From NCBI GenBank assembly GCA_944326565.1, contig CALVEL010000002.1:62001-126000 (forward strand): a stretch of 64,000 nucleotides of DNA. Direction: 5' to 3'. Positions within the stretch are counted from its first letter, which is position 1. The number at the start of each line of letters is the position of its first letter. The notes under the pieces are model-generated. The model did no database searches and had not been told where the DNA came from. It saw nothing but the letters and a program-made list of their open reading frames with translations. This document shows positions 21,935 to 62,717 of this stretch, in pieces. Origin of the DNA: Candidatus Gastranaerophilales bacterium (lineage in GTDB: Bacteria; Cyanobacteriota; Vampirovibrionia; Gastranaerophilales; Gastranaerophilaceae). The position numbers and the translations under genes are program-made.

Positions 21935-21963
21935 TTGCCAAGATAAACAAGAATTGATATAAT
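21935..21963 (+). promoter_or_regulatory. Promoter of pseudopilin copy 1
   Basis: TTGCCA (21935-21940), 17-nt spacer, TATAAT (21958-21963). The arrangement matches the promoters of copies 2 and 4. Confidence 0.8.
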
Positions 21964-21984
21964 AGAAAAGTAACAGAAAATAGA

Positions 21985-22049
21985 AGGAGCTGAAAATGCA
22001 GACTATGATTGAAATTATGGGGGGGGGGGGCACCCGAAAATAAGCTCCT
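21985..22049 (+). promoter_or_regulatory. Poly-G leader of pseudopilin copy 1
   Basis: The Shine-Dalgarno AGGAGCT (21985-21991) is exactly complementary to AGCTCCT (22043-22049). Between them lie ATG 21996, TTG 22009 and a run of 12 G (22019-22030). With 12 G the ATG frame ends at a TAA soon after the tract, and the pilin frame opens only from the weak TTG. Loss of one G would put the ATG in frame. Confidence 0.75.
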
Positions 22050-22785
22050 AGCAGGTAGAAAAATAGGGTTTACATTAGCAGAAGTTCTGATAACAATCGG
22101 AATAATCGGAATAGTCGCATCAATGACTATACCAATGCTGATTTCAGGATATAAAAAGAGTGTAGTAGTAAGCAGTTTGCAGAAGAATTTGTCACTTTTT
22201 TCACAAGCGGTACAACTTGCAGAGGCAAAACATGGATTTACTGATGAATGGCCTTATTGTAATGAGGATAGTTCAATAGAATGTACAGAGGATTTTTTTA
22301 ATAATTATCTGTTACCTGAATTAAAAGTTATAAAAGTATGTACCCCCGAGGAATCAGAAATATGTTGGACCAGCCCTAAAGGTTTGTCTGGACAATCCGG
22401 TTATTTAACTGGCAAAGAGTCTAAACATGTCAGAGCCTTATTAAGTAATGGCTCATCAATTATAATGTGGCCCGGCGTAGAAAGCGAAAGGAAACACTGG
22501 CAGATATGGATAGATATAGACGGACCTATGAAAGGACCTGCATTAATAGGCGGGGATGTTTTTGGATTTAGGTTAAATTATAAAACTTCTATAGACGATG
22601 GTATTTTATACCGAAAGGGTGTTGGTTTAGTAGGGGCTGATTTTTCGGATGAAGATGTATTAAGGAATGATTCTCTGTATGGATGCAGTAAAACTGTGAA
22701 TACTGTCTATGCTGGTCGATATTGCGGGGCATTAATTCAACATTCGGGCTGGAAAGTTCCAAAAGATTATCCTGTGAAGTTTTAA
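22009..22785 (+). CDS. Prepilin-type pseudopilin, copy 1
   Basis: A 258-residue secreted pilin-like protein. After the conserved GGGAPENKLLAGRK leader comes a class III signal sequence G|FTLAEVLITIGIIGIVASM, with prepilin peptidase cleavage expected after Gly20. A C-terminal globular domain follows with several Cys pairs (EICWT, YGCSK, RYCGAL). Likely part of a type II secretion or type IV pilus-like machine. In this assembly the pilin frame can start only at TTG 22009. The ATG with the good SD (21996) is one base out of frame because of the G tract. It has its own promoter and terminator. Confidence 0.75.
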   Translation: MKLWGGGAPENKLLAGRKIGFTLAEVLITIGIIGIVASMTIPMLISGYKKSVVVSSLQKNLSLFSQAVQLAEAKHGFTDEWPYCNEDSSIECTEDFFNNYLLPELKVIKVCTPEESEICWTSPKGLSGQSGYLTGKESKHVRALLSNGSSIIMWPGVESERKHWQIWIDIDGPMKGPALIGGDVFGFRLNYKTSIDDGILYRKGVGLVGADFSDEDVLRNDSLYGCSKTVNTVYAGRYCGALIQHSGWKVPKDYPVKF

Positions 22786-24053: not shown

Positions 24054-24192
24054 ATCACACCTCACATATCAGTTAAGTTTACAATGGTAATTTGAAAAAA
24101 TCAATGTTATTAAATTTATGTAATCAACAATTGTAACTAATTTGCCAAGTCCAAATTAAAAATGTAAAATAGTTACTATAGTGGGAGGGAAA

Positions 24193-25389
24193 ATGCCGAA
24201 GTTAGCTCAGGATAACAATTATAGAAGTTATTATCAAAGATATAGTTCAAATATACAAGAGTTACCCCATAGAAATTATGTGAATAATCAAGGGTACAGG
24301 ACAGTAGCAAAACCTGCTGAGCCAAGGTATATTAAAGGTAAAAGTAAAAAAGTTCAAAGAAATAATTTTACTCATACAATTGTATCTGTATTATTTTTAT
24401 CAATATTGGCGTTGTTTATTTTTCCTACCACATATAACAGAGTTATAAAATCATTTTTTTATAAATCACCCTATCCTAATATAAAAGCTGATTATCAAAA
24501 GATTTTAAATCCGACTGTAAATTATCTTCATAATGACTACTTTTTGGATACTTATTTTTTGAAGGGTGCTGAAAAGAAAAAGCCTCAAATGCTTTCGCTC
24601 AATCAAAATGAAAGACTTACAGGGCTGGAAAATTCTTTGAAAAATCTTGCAGCTCAATACCCGTCAGTGGAGCCTTCAATTTATGTATGGGACTATGATA
24701 CTGAAAATTATGCAGGAATTAATTCAGATAAACTGTATTCAGCAGCAAGTATTATAAAAATTCCTGTGCTTATACAACTTTTCAGATCAATAGAGATGGG
24801 ACAGCTGACAATTTACGATACAATGAAGTTAACTAACTATTATCGTGCAGAAGGATCAGGGAGTCTTCAGTTTAAAGCTGAAAATTCAGTATGGACAATG
24901 GATGATCTTGCTCGTTTAATGATTACCGAATCAGATAATTCTGCAACTAACATGATTATGTCAAAACTGGGTTCTATGTATGATGTGAATTCAAGTATAA
25001 GGCAGTGGGGATTGAGTCATACAAGAGTGAATACATGGCTTCCGGATATGGGCGGAACCAACTTTACAACAGCTGAAGATCTTGCAAGAATGCTCTATAA
25101 CCTTGATAATCCTAACTTCTTATCAGTAAGCTCACGTGAAAAAATTTTTGATTATATGGGGCATGTTCATAATGACAGATTGATTCCTGCTGGGCTTGGA
25201 GCTGGAGCTGTATTTATCCACAAAACAGGTGATATTGGTAAAATGCTCGGTGATGCAGGTATTGTCTATGCTCCGAATGGCAAAAAATATATTGTAGCAA
25301 TTTTAGTAAATCGTCCATATAATTCACCGCTTGGAAAAGATTTTATTGTCAAAGCTTCTGAAATTATATACAATACAATGGTAAAATAA
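24193..25389 (+). CDS. Membrane-anchored serine beta-lactamase/D,D-peptidase-fold protein
   Basis: A 398-residue protein. A basic cytoplasmic N-terminus and one membrane segment (FTHTIVSVLFLSILALFIF) come first. The C-terminal domain resembles class A beta-lactamases: SAASIIK (SxxK nucleophile), ITESDNSATN (SDN motif), and IHKTGDIG (KTG motif). The long linker to the catalytic domain and the general divergence leave open whether it hydrolyses beta-lactams or acts on peptidoglycan. ATG 24193 is preceded by GGGAGGGA. A terminator follows at 25415. Confidence 0.8.
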   Translation: MPKLAQDNNYRSYYQRYSSNIQELPHRNYVNNQGYRTVAKPAEPRYIKGKSKKVQRNNFTHTIVSVLFLSILALFIFPTTYNRVIKSFFYKSPYPNIKADYQKILNPTVNYLHNDYFLDTYFLKGAEKKKPQMLSLNQNERLTGLENSLKNLAAQYPSVEPSIYVWDYDTENYAGINSDKLYSAASIIKIPVLIQLFRSIEMGQLTIYDTMKLTNYYRAEGSGSLQFKAENSVWTMDDLARLMITESDNSATNMIMSKLGSMYDVNSSIRQWGLSHTRVNTWLPDMGGTNFTTAEDLARMLYNLDNPNFLSVSSREKIFDYMGHVHNDRLIPAGLGAGAVFIHKTGDIGKMLGDAGIVYAPNGKKYIVAILVNRPYNSPLGKDFIVKASEIIYNTMVK

Positions 25390-27585: not shown

Positions 27586-27606
27586 AAAAGAGTAACAGAA
27601 AACAGA

Positions 27607-27671
27607 AGGAGCTGGAAATGCAGACTATGATTGAAATATGGGGGGGGGGGGGCACCCGAAAATAAGCTCCT
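27607..27671 (+). promoter_or_regulatory. Poly-G leader of pseudopilin copy 2
   Basis: AGGAGCT (27607-27613) pairs with AGCTCCT (27665-27671). ATG 27618, TTG 27631 and 13 G (27640-27652) lie between. As in copy 1, the ATG frame runs into a TAA just past the tract, and only the TTG is in the pilin frame. Confidence 0.75.
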
Positions 27672-28365
27672 GGTTGGTAAAAAAATAGGATTTACAATGG
27701 CGGAAGTTCTGATAACCTTGGGGATAATCGGAATAGTTGCAGCGATGACCCTGCCGTCATTAATCAATAACAAGAAAAATAAAGAGCTAGAGACAGCGTT
27801 TAAGAAGAATTATTCAGTGATAAGTCAGGCACTGAATATGTATTATGCGCAGAATGGTGAAAGACTCACCCCTGAAAATGTTAAAAATATAAGATTAAAA
27901 ACAATATTAATGGATTATATGAAAGTTCTTCATGATTGTGGAATGGGATCTTATGATTCAGAAGCTTGTATTCCTAATTACGGTGAAAATCATGAAGATA
28001 ATCCCAAAATTTATAAGACTTTTAACGGTAAGACCGAAATGAATTTAGGAATGTTTGATGATGGTCAATTTGTATTAAATGATGGAAGCCTTATTTTGAT
28101 TGAAAATGCTTTTTCAAACCCCGGAACGGTATATATTTCAGTAGATGTAAACGGACATCTAAAAAATCCGAACCGATTAGGACATGATCTTTTTATGTTC
28201 CAGCTTGACAGTAAAGGAAATTTAATTCCAATGGGGGCTAAGGGAACTGATTATTATGATGAAAATGATGCATACTGCTCTTCTATGTCAACAAATAATA
28301 TGAATGGAGCAGCTTGTACAATAAAAGCAATTAATGAAAAAGATTACTTTACAAAATTACACTGA
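27631..28365 (+). CDS. Prepilin-type pseudopilin, copy 2
   Basis: A 244-residue pilin-like protein. The leader GGGAPENKLLVGKK is followed by G|FTMAEVLITLGIIGIVAAMTLPSLI. The C-terminal domain is different from copies 3 and 4 but keeps acidic surface loops and the pattern of paired Cys (HDCGMG, AYCSSM). The in-frame start is TTG 27631. The SD-proximal ATG at 27618 is out of frame by one base. Own promoter (27557) and terminator (28378). Confidence 0.75.
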   Translation: MKYGGGGAPENKLLVGKKIGFTMAEVLITLGIIGIVAAMTLPSLINNKKNKELETAFKKNYSVISQALNMYYAQNGERLTPENVKNIRLKTILMDYMKVLHDCGMGSYDSEACIPNYGENHEDNPKIYKTFNGKTEMNLGMFDDGQFVLNDGSLILIENAFSNPGTVYISVDVNGHLKNPNRLGHDLFMFQLDSKGNLIPMGAKGTDYYDENDAYCSSMSTNNMNGAACTIKAINEKDYFTKLH

Positions 28366-28423: not shown

Positions 28424-29341
28424 TTAAGCTCTTGGATGAGCCTCATTATATACTTCTTTCAAATGCTGAGTTGATACGTGAGTATAAATCTGAGTATTTG
28501 AAATACTTGCATGTCCCAAAAGTTCTTGTACAACTCTTAAATCTGCACCGTTTTCTATCAAGTGTGTTGCAAAGCTGTGACGAAATACGTGCGGGGTAAC
28601 TTTTTTGGGTAGTGCAATTTTTTCTACAATATCATTTATTACATTTCTGATAGTTTTTGTCTGGAGACGATAGCCTGTATTATTTATGAATACAGGGGAG
28701 CTTTCTGTAGCTTCTTCTAGTGGAAAGCCTTTTGGAATTAAAGGTCTTGCTGTTTCAATATATCTTTCCAAATAAGATTTAGCTCTGTCTGTCACAAGAA
28801 TAATCCGTTCTTTTGCTCCTTTTCCAAATACTCTTATTTCATTGTTTTCTAAATTCAAATCACCAAAATTTAATCCGCTTAATTCCGATACACGCATTCC
28901 AGTTGCCCATAAAAGTTCCAAAATCGCGCGATTTCTATAACCTGACGGTGTATCAATTTTTACATTGTTTAAAATACTTTCTACCTCATCAGGTGTTAAA
29001 AATTTTGGAAGTGATTTTGGACGTTTCGGTGCTGTCAAATTTATCGCAGGGTTCGAGTCAACTTTCCTTTCTCTGTATAAATATTTATAAAAAGTTCTTA
29101 TAGATGCTATTTTTCTTGCAATGGTATTTTTTTTGTAATTGAATCTTTGAATAAAATGTAGATATTCTCTTACTTTAGAAAAATTCACATCTTCACAAGA
29201 CTGTTCTCCCATCCATATCAAAAAACCTAAAACGTCTGAACAGTAAGCTTTTGCAGTATGTTCAGAAAAGTTTTTTTCAACTATTATATAAGATTTGAAA
29301 TCTTCTAAATCCTGTTTTGAAATTGAATTTAAACCCATCAT
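28424..29341 (-). CDS. Tyrosine recombinase, XerC/XerD type
   Basis: A 305-residue chromosomal-type recombinase that resolves replicated chromosome dimers at dif. Seen: the N-terminal SAM-like domain (SEHTAKAYCSDVLGFL), then catalytic Arg in ATGMRVSELSGL, HVFRHSFATHL (HxxR), LLGHASISNTQIYTHV (His/Trp position and Tyr nucleophile). Length and motifs fit XerC/D and not the integrase of the island. Start supported by AAGGTAA. It is probably the single Xer recombinase or one of a pair. Confidence 0.9.
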   Translation of the reverse strand: MMGLNSISKQDLEDFKSYIIVEKNFSEHTAKAYCSDVLGFLIWMGEQSCEDVNFSKVREYLHFIQRFNYKKNTIARKIASIRTFYKYLYRERKVDSNPAINLTAPKRPKSLPKFLTPDEVESILNNVKIDTPSGYRNRAILELLWATGMRVSELSGLNFGDLNLENNEIRVFGKGAKERIILVTDRAKSYLERYIETARPLIPKGFPLEEATESSPVFINNTGYRLQTKTIRNVINDIVEKIALPKKVTPHVFRHSFATHLIENGADLRVVQELLGHASISNTQIYTHVSTQHLKEVYNEAHPRA

Positions 29342-32223: not shown

Positions 32224-32226
32224 AGA

Positions 32227-32291
32227 AGGAGCTGGAAATGCAGACTATGATTGAAAATATGGGGGGGGGGGGCACCCGAAAATAAGCTCCT
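32227..32291 (+). promoter_or_regulatory. Poly-G leader of pseudopilin copy 3 (promoterless)
   Basis: AGGAGCT (32227-32233) pairs with AGCTCCT (32285-32291). ATG 32238, TTG 32251 and 12 G (32261-32272) lie between. The leader begins within 10 nt of the engB stop, so the usual TTGCCA/TATAAT upstream part is missing. Confidence 0.75.
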
Positions 32292-33039
32292 GGTTGGTAA
32301 AAAAATAGGATTTACACAAAAGCCAACAGATTTAAAAAAAGAGAAAGTATCAATTTACCCAAAGGCTTTATCAAAAGTCTTTTCTAAAAGTGCCTTTACA
32401 ATGGCAGAAGTTTTGATAACTTTAGGCATAATCGGGATAGTAGCCGCAATGACTATACCCGGTCTAATCAAGAATTATCAGGAAAGACAGTTCAAAACAG
32501 CATATAAAAAAGTATATTCAGAAATATCCCAAGCGTTTCAAGAAGCATTGCTGAATCAGGAGTTTGCACGTGCGCAAAAGAGGGATATACCTGCTACAGA
32601 AGAAGAATTTAATATATTAAAATCTAAATTCAAGGTAATGCTTGATTGTGGAAATCAACAGATAGATCGTTGCTGGAAAAAAGGTGATACATTATGTGGA
32701 GGTTCATGTTCATCAGGCAATTCCGCGGATGGTATTGATATGGATGACGGTGCACCTAGAGAAAATGATTCGTTATGTTTTATAGATGGTGGCGGTCAAA
32801 GTTGGTGTACATATACTGCTAGAGAAAACATATTTTTAGTAGACACAAATGGACGAGCAAATCCGAACAGATTTGGTCGTGACAGATGGATGTTTACATT
32901 TGCTGATATAAATAATAATAGAACGAATAGTTTTGTTAGTTATAAAAAAGTTATTCCTTATATAAATGAAGATGTACTAACCCAGGAATGGTACTGCAAA
33001 CGTCCGCCTTGTTATTATCAATCCTGGCTTTTGAAGTAA
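32251..33039 (+). CDS. Prepilin-type pseudopilin, copy 3, with insertion in the leader
   Basis: A 262-residue pilin-like protein. An extra 28-residue segment (32317-32400) lies between the leader GGGAPENKLLVGKKIGFT and MAEVLITLGIIGIVAAM. As a result the residue before FTMAEVL is Ala instead of Gly (KSA|FTMAEVL), while an unused G|FT stands upstream. The mature domain has paired Cys (LDCGN, DRCWKKGDTLCGGSCSSG, CKRPPCYYQSW) and closely matches copy 4. The start in the pilin frame is TTG 32251. It is probably read from the engB transcript. Confidence 0.75.
   Translation: MKIWGGGAPENKLLVGKKIGFTQKPTDLKKEKVSIYPKALSKVFSKSAFTMAEVLITLGIIGIVAAMTIPGLIKNYQERQFKTAYKKVYSEISQAFQEALLNQEFARAQKRDIPATEEEFNILKSKFKVMLDCGNQQIDRCWKKGDTLCGGSCSSGNSADGIDMDDGAPRENDSLCFIDGGGQSWCTYTARENIFLVDTNGRANPNRFGRDRWMFTFADINNNRTNSFVSYKKVIPYINEDVLTQEWYCKRPPCYYQSWLLK
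32317..32400 (+). repeat. 84-bp palindrome-containing insertion in pseudopilin copy 3
   Basis: Compared with copies 1 and 2, 84 nt are inserted in frame, flanked by TTTACA at both ends (32311-32316 and 32395-32400). Inside is a hairpin: AAAGGCTTT, loop ATCA, AAAGTCTTT (one G-T wobble). A sister insertion occurs in copy 4. Confidence 0.65.
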
Positions 33040-61882: not shown

Positions 61883-61905
61883 GATAAAGTAATAGCAAAC
61901 AGAGA

Positions 61906-61969
61906 AGGAGCTGGAAATGCAGACTATGATTGAAATTAGGGGGGGGGGGGCACCCGAAAATAAGCTCCT
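61906..61969 (+). promoter_or_regulatory. Poly-G leader of pseudopilin copy 4 (ATG in frame)
   Basis: AGGAGCT (61906-61912) pairs with AGCTCCT (61963-61969). ATG 61917 and 12 G (61939-61950) lie between. One base before the tract differs from the other copies (ATTA in place of ATTAT), so here 12 G put the ATG in the pilin frame. Confidence 0.75.
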
Positions 61970-62717
61970 AGTTGGTAAAAAAACAGGATTTACACAAAAG
62001 CCAACAGATTTTAAAAGAGGTATTATATCAATTTACCCAAAGGCTTTATCAAAAGCCTTTTACAAAAGTGCCTTTACAATGGCAGAAGTATTAATAACAA
62101 TAGGGATAATCGGGATAGTAGCCGCAATGACTATACCCGGTCTAATCAAGAATTATCAGGAAAGACAATTTAAGACAGCATATAAAAAAGTATATTCAGA
62201 AATATCCCAAGCGTTTCAAGAAGCATTACTAAATCAAGAGTTTACAAGAACAACACAATTTTCTGCTACAGCTACAACAGAGGAATTTAATATATTAAAA
62301 TCCAAATTCAAAGTAATGCTTGATTGTGGCTCTGAGGATATAGACCGCTGCTGGAAAAAAGGCGATACCTTGTGTGGTGGTTCATGTCAATCAGGCAATT
62401 CCGCAGATGGTATTGATATGGAAAATGGTGCTCCTATGCAAGGTGAAGCTTCGTGTTTTATAGATGGTGGTGGACAAAACTGGTGTATATATGGTGCTAG
62501 AGAAAACATATTTTTAGTAGATACAAATGGTTTTTCAAATCCGAATCAATTTGGTAGAGATAGGTGGATATTTACATTTGCTGATATAAATAATGAACGG
62601 ACAGTTTATTCTGCTAAGTATAAAAAAGTTATTCCTTACATAAATGAAGATATATTGACACAAACTTCTTTTTGCAAACATCCGCCTTGTTATTATGAAT
62701 CCTGGCTTTTGAAGTAA
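61917..62717 (+). CDS. Prepilin-type pseudopilin, copy 4, ATG in frame
   Basis: A 266-residue pilin-like protein, close paralogue of copy 3. Order: MQTMIEIRGGGAPENKLLVGKK, the 84-bp insertion segment with a perfect hairpin, then FTMAEVLITIGIIGIVAAM with Ala before Phe, and a mature domain with the same Cys pattern (LDCGSED, DRCWKKGDTLCGGSCQSG, CKHPPCYYESW). This is the only copy in which the SD-proximal ATG is in frame with the pilin, so it should be expressed best. Confidence 0.8.
   Translation: MQTMIEIRGGGAPENKLLVGKKTGFTQKPTDFKRGIISIYPKALSKAFYKSAFTMAEVLITIGIIGIVAAMTIPGLIKNYQERQFKTAYKKVYSEISQAFQEALLNQEFTRTTQFSATATTEEFNILKSKFKVMLDCGSEDIDRCWKKGDTLCGGSCQSGNSADGIDMENGAPMQGEASCFIDGGGQNWCIYGARENIFLVDTNGFSNPNQFGRDRWIFTFADINNERTVYSAKYKKVIPYINEDILTQTSFCKHPPCYYESWLLK
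61995..62078 (+). repeat. 84-bp palindrome-containing insertion in pseudopilin copy 4
   Basis: In-frame 84 nt between TTTACA (61989-61994) and TTTACA (62073-62078). Contains a perfect 9-bp hairpin AAAGGCTTT-ATCA-AAAGCCTTT (62039-62060). Confidence 0.7.

Follow-up and report, generated by a model that had tools for sequence, protein, structure and literature searches.

Poly-G tracts at the starts of four pilin genes

The DNA analyzed here, referred to as the window, is a stretch of 64,000 nt from a genome of Candidatus Gastranaerophilales (1.87 Mb in 14 contigs). Four poly-G tracts of 12 or 13 G were found in the window, and these are the only runs of at least 8 G on its + strand (Table 1). 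Each of them lies at the start of a pilin ORF, and their number is far above chance, with 3e-5 runs of at least 12 G expected on both strands of a window of the same composition. The prepilin N-terminal motif FT[LM]AEVLIT[LI]G is present in all four ORFs and nowhere else in the window, and the ORFs show the G/A^F-T-x-A-E signature, with a hydrophobic helix after it, that defines membership in the prepilins. An earlier note, made from the sequence of this DNA, had described the tracts and placed them ahead of pilin genes, and we found them so at all four positions.

Matches of the pilins to Pfam and NCBIfam families were confined to the prepilin N-terminus. Copy 1 scored above the cut-off of PF07963 (N_methyl; 21.6 vs 21.2 bits) and copies 2 and 4 scored slightly below it (20.9 and 19.7 bits), whereas TIGR02532 was matched above its cut-off by copies 3 and 4. 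No sortase or LPXTG family was found among the pilins and the neighbours scanned, and the genes were thus not assigned to the bifidobacterial type of sortase pilus. The pilin genes are solitary and flanked by ordinary genes, for example those of an M50 protease, spermidine synthase and methionyl-tRNA synthetase. A tyrosine recombinase of the Phage_integrase family is encoded directly 3' of pilin copy 2 (28424-29341, - strand). A class A beta-lactamase-like protein, well under the NCBIfam cut-offs, is encoded at 24181-25389 (+ strand).

Table 1. Coordinates of the poly-G leaders and pilin ORFs in the window (SD, Shine-Dalgarno sequence; anti-SD, complement of the SD)
Feature	Position	Strand	Details
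Copy 1, extended -10 promoter-like TGATATAAT	21955..21963	+	from sequence; 41 nt 5' of ATG
Copy 1, SD AAGGAGCT	21984..21991	+	
Copy 1, short ATG-frame ORF MQTMIEIMGGGGTRK	21996..22043	+	stop TAA 22041-22043
Copy 1, G12 tract	22019..22030	+	pilin frame +1 vs ATG
Copy 1, AGCTCCT, perfect complement of SD	22043..22049	+	
Copy 1, pilin-frame ORF from in-frame TTG	22009..22785	+	prepilin motif at 22069
Copy 2, switch	27606..27671	+	SD 27606, ATG 27618, G13 27640-27652, ATG-frame TAA 27663-27665, anti-SD 27665-27671
Copy 2, pilin-frame ORF	27631..28365	+	motif at 27691
Copy 3, switch	32226..32291	+	SD 32226, ATG 32238, G12 32261-32272, ATG-frame TAA 32283-32285, anti-SD 32285-32291
Copy 3, pilin-frame ORF	32251..33039	+	motif at 32395; extra QKPTDLKKEK...KSA between leader and motif
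Copy 4, switch, in frame (predicted ON)	61905..61969	+	SD 61905, ATG 61917, G12 61939-61950, anti-SD 61963-61969
Copy 4, pilin ORF	61917..62717	+	266 aa from ATG; motif at 62073

The distance from the A of the SD-proximal ATG to the last G is 35 nt in copies 1 to 3 and 34 nt in copy 4, whose ATG shares the pilin frame. In copies 1 to 3, a TAA 10 nt past the tract closes the ATG frame, and the pilin frame contains a TTG located 13 nt past the ATG. One more G would give 36 nt, and the TGA of ATTGA would then shut the pilin frame upstream. These frame relations agree with the earlier note, which had read them as a strong start, a weak start and an off state. The interval from 21985 to 22049, in addition, is bounded exactly by the SD (AGGAGCT) and, at its other end, by a perfect inverted repeat of it (AGCTCCT), a feature missed in that note, and this SD-to-inverted-repeat module recurs across the genome.

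Reading frame of the pilin genes in the genus

For each locus, the best SD-supported start was chosen by a fixed rule, which is a heuristic, and tract lengths were those of the assembly consensus. Relative to this sole well-placed start (SD plus ATG), the pilin frame was +1 at 106 of 139 loci of the genus, in frame at 18 and +2 at 15, an excess of +1 with a binomial p of 8e-25. The loci are not independent, because near-identical leaders within one genome may have spread together; with such leaders collapsed, the pilin frame was +1 in 55 of 80 (p 1e-10). A 140-locus set, which adds one locus from another genus (L081), contained 107 +1 loci, compared with 63 ± 4.8 when tract lengths were shuffled among the loci, and none of 20,000 shuffles reached the observed number. 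The frame of the product relative to its start is set by tract length.

The tract length compensated for the length of the stretch before it: where 13, 12 or 11 G were predicted to give +1, the tracts mostly had 13, 12 or 11 G, respectively. A purely mutational preference for G12 was ruled out by this dependence on pre-tract length modulo 3 (chi-square p 1e-19; 1e-8 in the non-redundant set). Departures from +1 were observed at 12 of the 85 loci where +1 corresponds to G12, as opposed to 21 of 54 elsewhere (p 0.001; 0.09 in the strictest non-redundant set). Tract length responds to frame and to absolute length alike.

At all 107 +1 loci, the ATG frame was open up to the tract, and at 99 of them it met a stop within 11 nt past the tract. 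No ATG, GTG or TTG was present in the pilin frame 5' of the tract at 38 of the 107, and 24 lacked even a CTG there. The +1 arrangement is therefore independent of the TTG seen in the window, and TTG as a general second start was ruled out. Given this layout of starts and stops, the pilin would be reachable only via a frame change at the tract, or from rarer starts. We read the +1 phase as a default OFF state, or one dependent on slippage, rather than one with a weak start. Ribosomes might also re-initiate past the ATG-frame stop, at the CTG of KLL, but inspection ruled this out, the codon being CTC, CTA or CTT in many copies.

Tracts in the source genome and its relatives

The source genome contains 33 runs of at least 9 G and 77 matches to the prepilin motif, and our own scan found 31 poly-G tracts that precede pilin-like ORFs. 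The sequence G9-CACCCGAAAATAAG is present in 19 exact copies. GTDB lists its relatives as Candidatus Gastranaerophilales MAGs. With up to 3 mismatches allowed, 10 of the 14 genomes of the genus contained the module, and outside the genus it gave a single weak match among 288 family genomes; the exact module is essentially confined to the source genus. The exact cassette pattern had no match in viral contigs and GTDB contigs, a set from which near-identical records were possibly omitted. Runs of at least 9 G were present in 83 of 97 sampled family genomes (37 of 41 genera), and some relatives had more than 100. Sites composed of SD, ATG, leader and G9 were numerous in several family genera, with raw counts inflated by overlapping G runs. 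At L345, L346, L347, L374, L405, L419 and L471, all in other genera of the family, a run of at least 9 G is followed by a long ORF without the pilin motif. No paper in the literature searched links Gastranaerophilales with phase variation.

In other genera, 39 pilin loci were distributed as 15 in +1, 15 in +2 and 9 in frame, which rules out the +1 preference of the genus as a family-wide rule. A fixed frame relation, the hallmark sought for programmed frameshifting, was thus seen in the genus but not in the other genera of the family. The +2 loci of the other genera were mostly of G10 or shorter (11 of 15) and the +1 loci mostly of at least G11 (12 of 15; p 0.009), a pattern in line with the insertion/deletion bias of Campylobacter jejuni poly-G tracts (PMC8224891).

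Tract length also differed between otherwise near-identical loci, in a few pairs only. Near-identical leaders one G and one frame apart were found in other genera for L398 (G11) and L413 (G10), and for L441 (G10) and L446 (G9). L030 and L091, from two species of the genus, encode pilins that are 99.8% identical and differ in tract and phase; small indels adjoining the tract distinguish them as well, and these could be assembly errors.

An SD-complementary element and a putative promoter

The complement of the SD, CTCCT, was found within 40 nt past the tract at 42 of 72 non-redundant loci, compared with 1.3% of background windows. It occupied the three codon positions of the pilin frame 17, 15 and 10 times, and its retention in all three frames suggests that the nucleic acid, and not the peptide, is under selection. 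The longest pairing between the SD and the downstream region averaged 5.7 bp, as opposed to 4.3 bp with the downstream region shuffled. Pairing of the SD with the downstream region of another locus gave 5.4 bp, which is nearly the same and therefore indicates a shared motif rather than proven co-variation. In folding predictions for 40 loci, the SD core paired with CUCCU with a mean probability of 0.58, and changing CUCCU lowered the predicted total pairing of the SD from 0.73 to 0.37. Furthermore, an extended -10-like site, TGnTAnnAT, was located 15 to 75 nt (about 44 nt) upstream of the start at 53 of the 139 genus loci, compared with 2.4% in the background, which suggests that many of the genes are transcribed from a promoter of their own.

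Leader and pilin-body modules

Among 23 copies in the source genome, the block from about 15 nt 5' of the ATG to about 40 nt past the tract was 69 to 98% identical, with 77 to 98% around the SD, ATG and tract, and the pilin bodies past residue 30 had a median identity of 34%. L012 and L016, about 87 kb apart on the same contig of this genome, share one pilin body (651 bp, 99.7%) but have different leaders and flanks; the match starts 9 nt before the prepilin motif and ends at the base before the stop codon. Three further pairs (94 to 96%) have a similar 5' breakpoint: L119/L127, L053/L122 and L006 (window copy 2)/L120. These shared bodies behind different leaders, few as the examples are, suggest recombination between leader and body. 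It is possible, although doubtful, that pilin variation is combinatorial, such that the poly-G leaders would act as switchable cassettes and the mature bodies would move between them by recombination at the prepilin cleavage region. A cell would then vary the set of sites that are ON as well as the pilin found at each.

Several leaders contain additional stretches. A shared insert lies between the poly-G leader and the pilin in L001, L002, L016, L018, L019 and L144, and all of these except L001 have an ordinary SD and ATG just 5' of the prepilin motif, so that the tract may not govern the sole start in those five copies of the source genome. Inserts resembling dispersed palindromic-repeat peptides (CHPE..RRIS..ILRFAQND) were observed in L022, L024, L031, L036, L039, L183, L191 and L211, and the pilin frame remains open through them for up to about 140 codons. 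In L144 and L043, a different frame (HPRISS...) is used just past the tract before the usual leader or insert resumes, which amounts to a compensated frame change.

Proposed switch and alternative explanations

The architecture, the frame bias, the multiplicity of the loci and the tract-length differences between paralogues are directly visible in the assemblies. We propose, with a probability of about 0.65, that these loci undergo slipped-strand phase variation, with one extra G turning the gene OFF and the SD sequestered by the anti-SD element. The loci would be scattered ON/OFF switches acting on translation, with replication slippage in the poly-G tract within the population as the driving process. 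At loci in phase 0, translation from the SD-supported ATG would cross the tract and continue into the prepilin leader and the pilin (ON). In the usual state of the genus, the tract would have one G in excess, translation from the ATG would end just past it and before GCUCCU, and no pilin would be made (OFF); loss of one G would turn the gene ON. GCUCCU probably folds back on the SD, and translation in the ON state would keep this hairpin open, whereas termination in the OFF state would let it close and make the OFF state tighter. The OFF state would be poised to switch because deletion is the commonest change at 10 or more G in other poly-G systems. Likewise, the +1 default at G11 to G13 would lie one common step from ON, since -1 changes predominate in Bifidobacterium breve and, at 10 or more G, in C. 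jejuni. Simple phase variation predicts two equally frequent OFF phases, yet +1 outnumbers +2 by 7:1 in the genus. Slippage bias accounts for the direction of this preference but not for its strength; one possible reason is the tighter OFF state obtained when translation terminates before the SD-complementary element.

The main rival, which we consider unlikely, is programmed slippage during expression: RNA polymerase would drop a G or the ribosome would shift by +1, so that +1 would be the working state with a low, steady supply of pilin, and the tract in the DNA need not vary. This mechanism would directly explain the preference for +1 over +2. The compensation between pre-tract length and tract length is consistent with it, and so is the frameshift-window layout of most +1 loci, in which the ATG-frame stop lies just past the tract and the pilin frame is often closed just before it. 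However, the other genera show no +1 preference, the one-G difference within paralogue pairs is present in the DNA itself, and the bacterial study of transcriptional slippage (PMC6260861) concerns A/T runs.

Phase variation with three states, as envisaged in the earlier note, is less probable still. In that scheme, the pilin of the 35-nt copies would start at the TTG and be expressed at a level between ON and OFF. The TTG is indeed in frame in window copies 1 to 3, and some ATG, GTG or TTG precedes the tract in the pilin frame at 69 of the 107 +1 loci, but the remaining 38 have no such start. Moreover, about 19 nt separate the SD from the TTG, which follows the stronger ATG, and because the TTG arises from ATTGAA codons that the leaders have in common, its recurrence largely reflects shared descent. 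Of the interpretation in that note, we retain the setting of the pilin frame by the G tract, which is supported by the paralogue pairs that differ in tract length and frame, and drop the middle state. Finally, the pilin frame is open from the tract to the pilin even through the longest inserts, and the same frame relation is found with unrelated leaders and in several species. These observations make it very improbable that the leader cassette and its tract length merely spread by duplication or gene conversion, with real starts elsewhere and no regulatory role for the tract, although the leader cores are far more alike than the pilin bodies and some copies retain an ordinary SD and ATG downstream.

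Comparison with known systems

Phase variation by poly-G tracts is a known kind of switch, and the loci described here would be a variant of it on an unusual scale. The closest known system is that of the pilus G-tracts of B. breve (PMC9187656). In strain UCC2003, bbr_0113 and bbr_1889 consist of a short ORF with an SD, a G10 or G11 tract, a stop and a pilin ORF without its own SD; the pilus genes are OFF by default, and the productive change is -1 (PMC9187656). Length mixtures were detected at the DNA level, with 6.5% of -1 and about 0.1% of additions at the G10 locus (PMC9187656). The loci described here resemble it in layout, in the proposed OFF state with -1 as the productive change, and in belonging to a gut bacterium; slippage was measured in B. 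breve, whereas here the architecture is read from sequence. In contrast to the LPXTG sortase pilins at two loci of B. breve, type IV-like pilins (N_methyl motif) are encoded here at about 30 loci in one genome, and an SD-complementary element follows the tract.

In C. jejuni, tracts of 7 to 13 G set the reading frame of phase-variable poly-G/poly-C genes at many loci per genome (PMC4965091, PMC8224891), and tracts of at least 10 G mostly lose a G while those of 9 or fewer mostly gain one (PMC8224891). These are mostly surface-modification and other genes, as opposed to one pilin family. We know of no shared leader cassette in C. jejuni. In Neisseria, a G-tract near the start of pilC gives phase variation of the pilus. 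Pilin segments recombine between pilE and pilS (PMC3960869). Neisseria has a single expressed pilE and either one or two pilC genes, compared with dozens of separate pilin genes here. Genes with programmed frameshifting or transcriptional realignment are similar in that an upstream ORF stops just past a slippery run and the downstream ORF lies in a fixed other frame, but the run here is poly-G and the frame relation varies across the family.

If the proposed switch is true, uncultured gut relatives of cyanobacteria hold one of the larger poly-G switch repertoires, with 33 runs of at least 9 G in this genome compared with the 29 tracts of 7 or more G given for C. jejuni NCTC11168 (PMC4965091). 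Each pilin gene would vary independently, and surface diversity would be readable from tract lengths in metagenomes. The default of one G too many, common to these loci and the Bifidobacterium pili, suggests default-OFF switches poised along the slippage bias, which is a testable idea.
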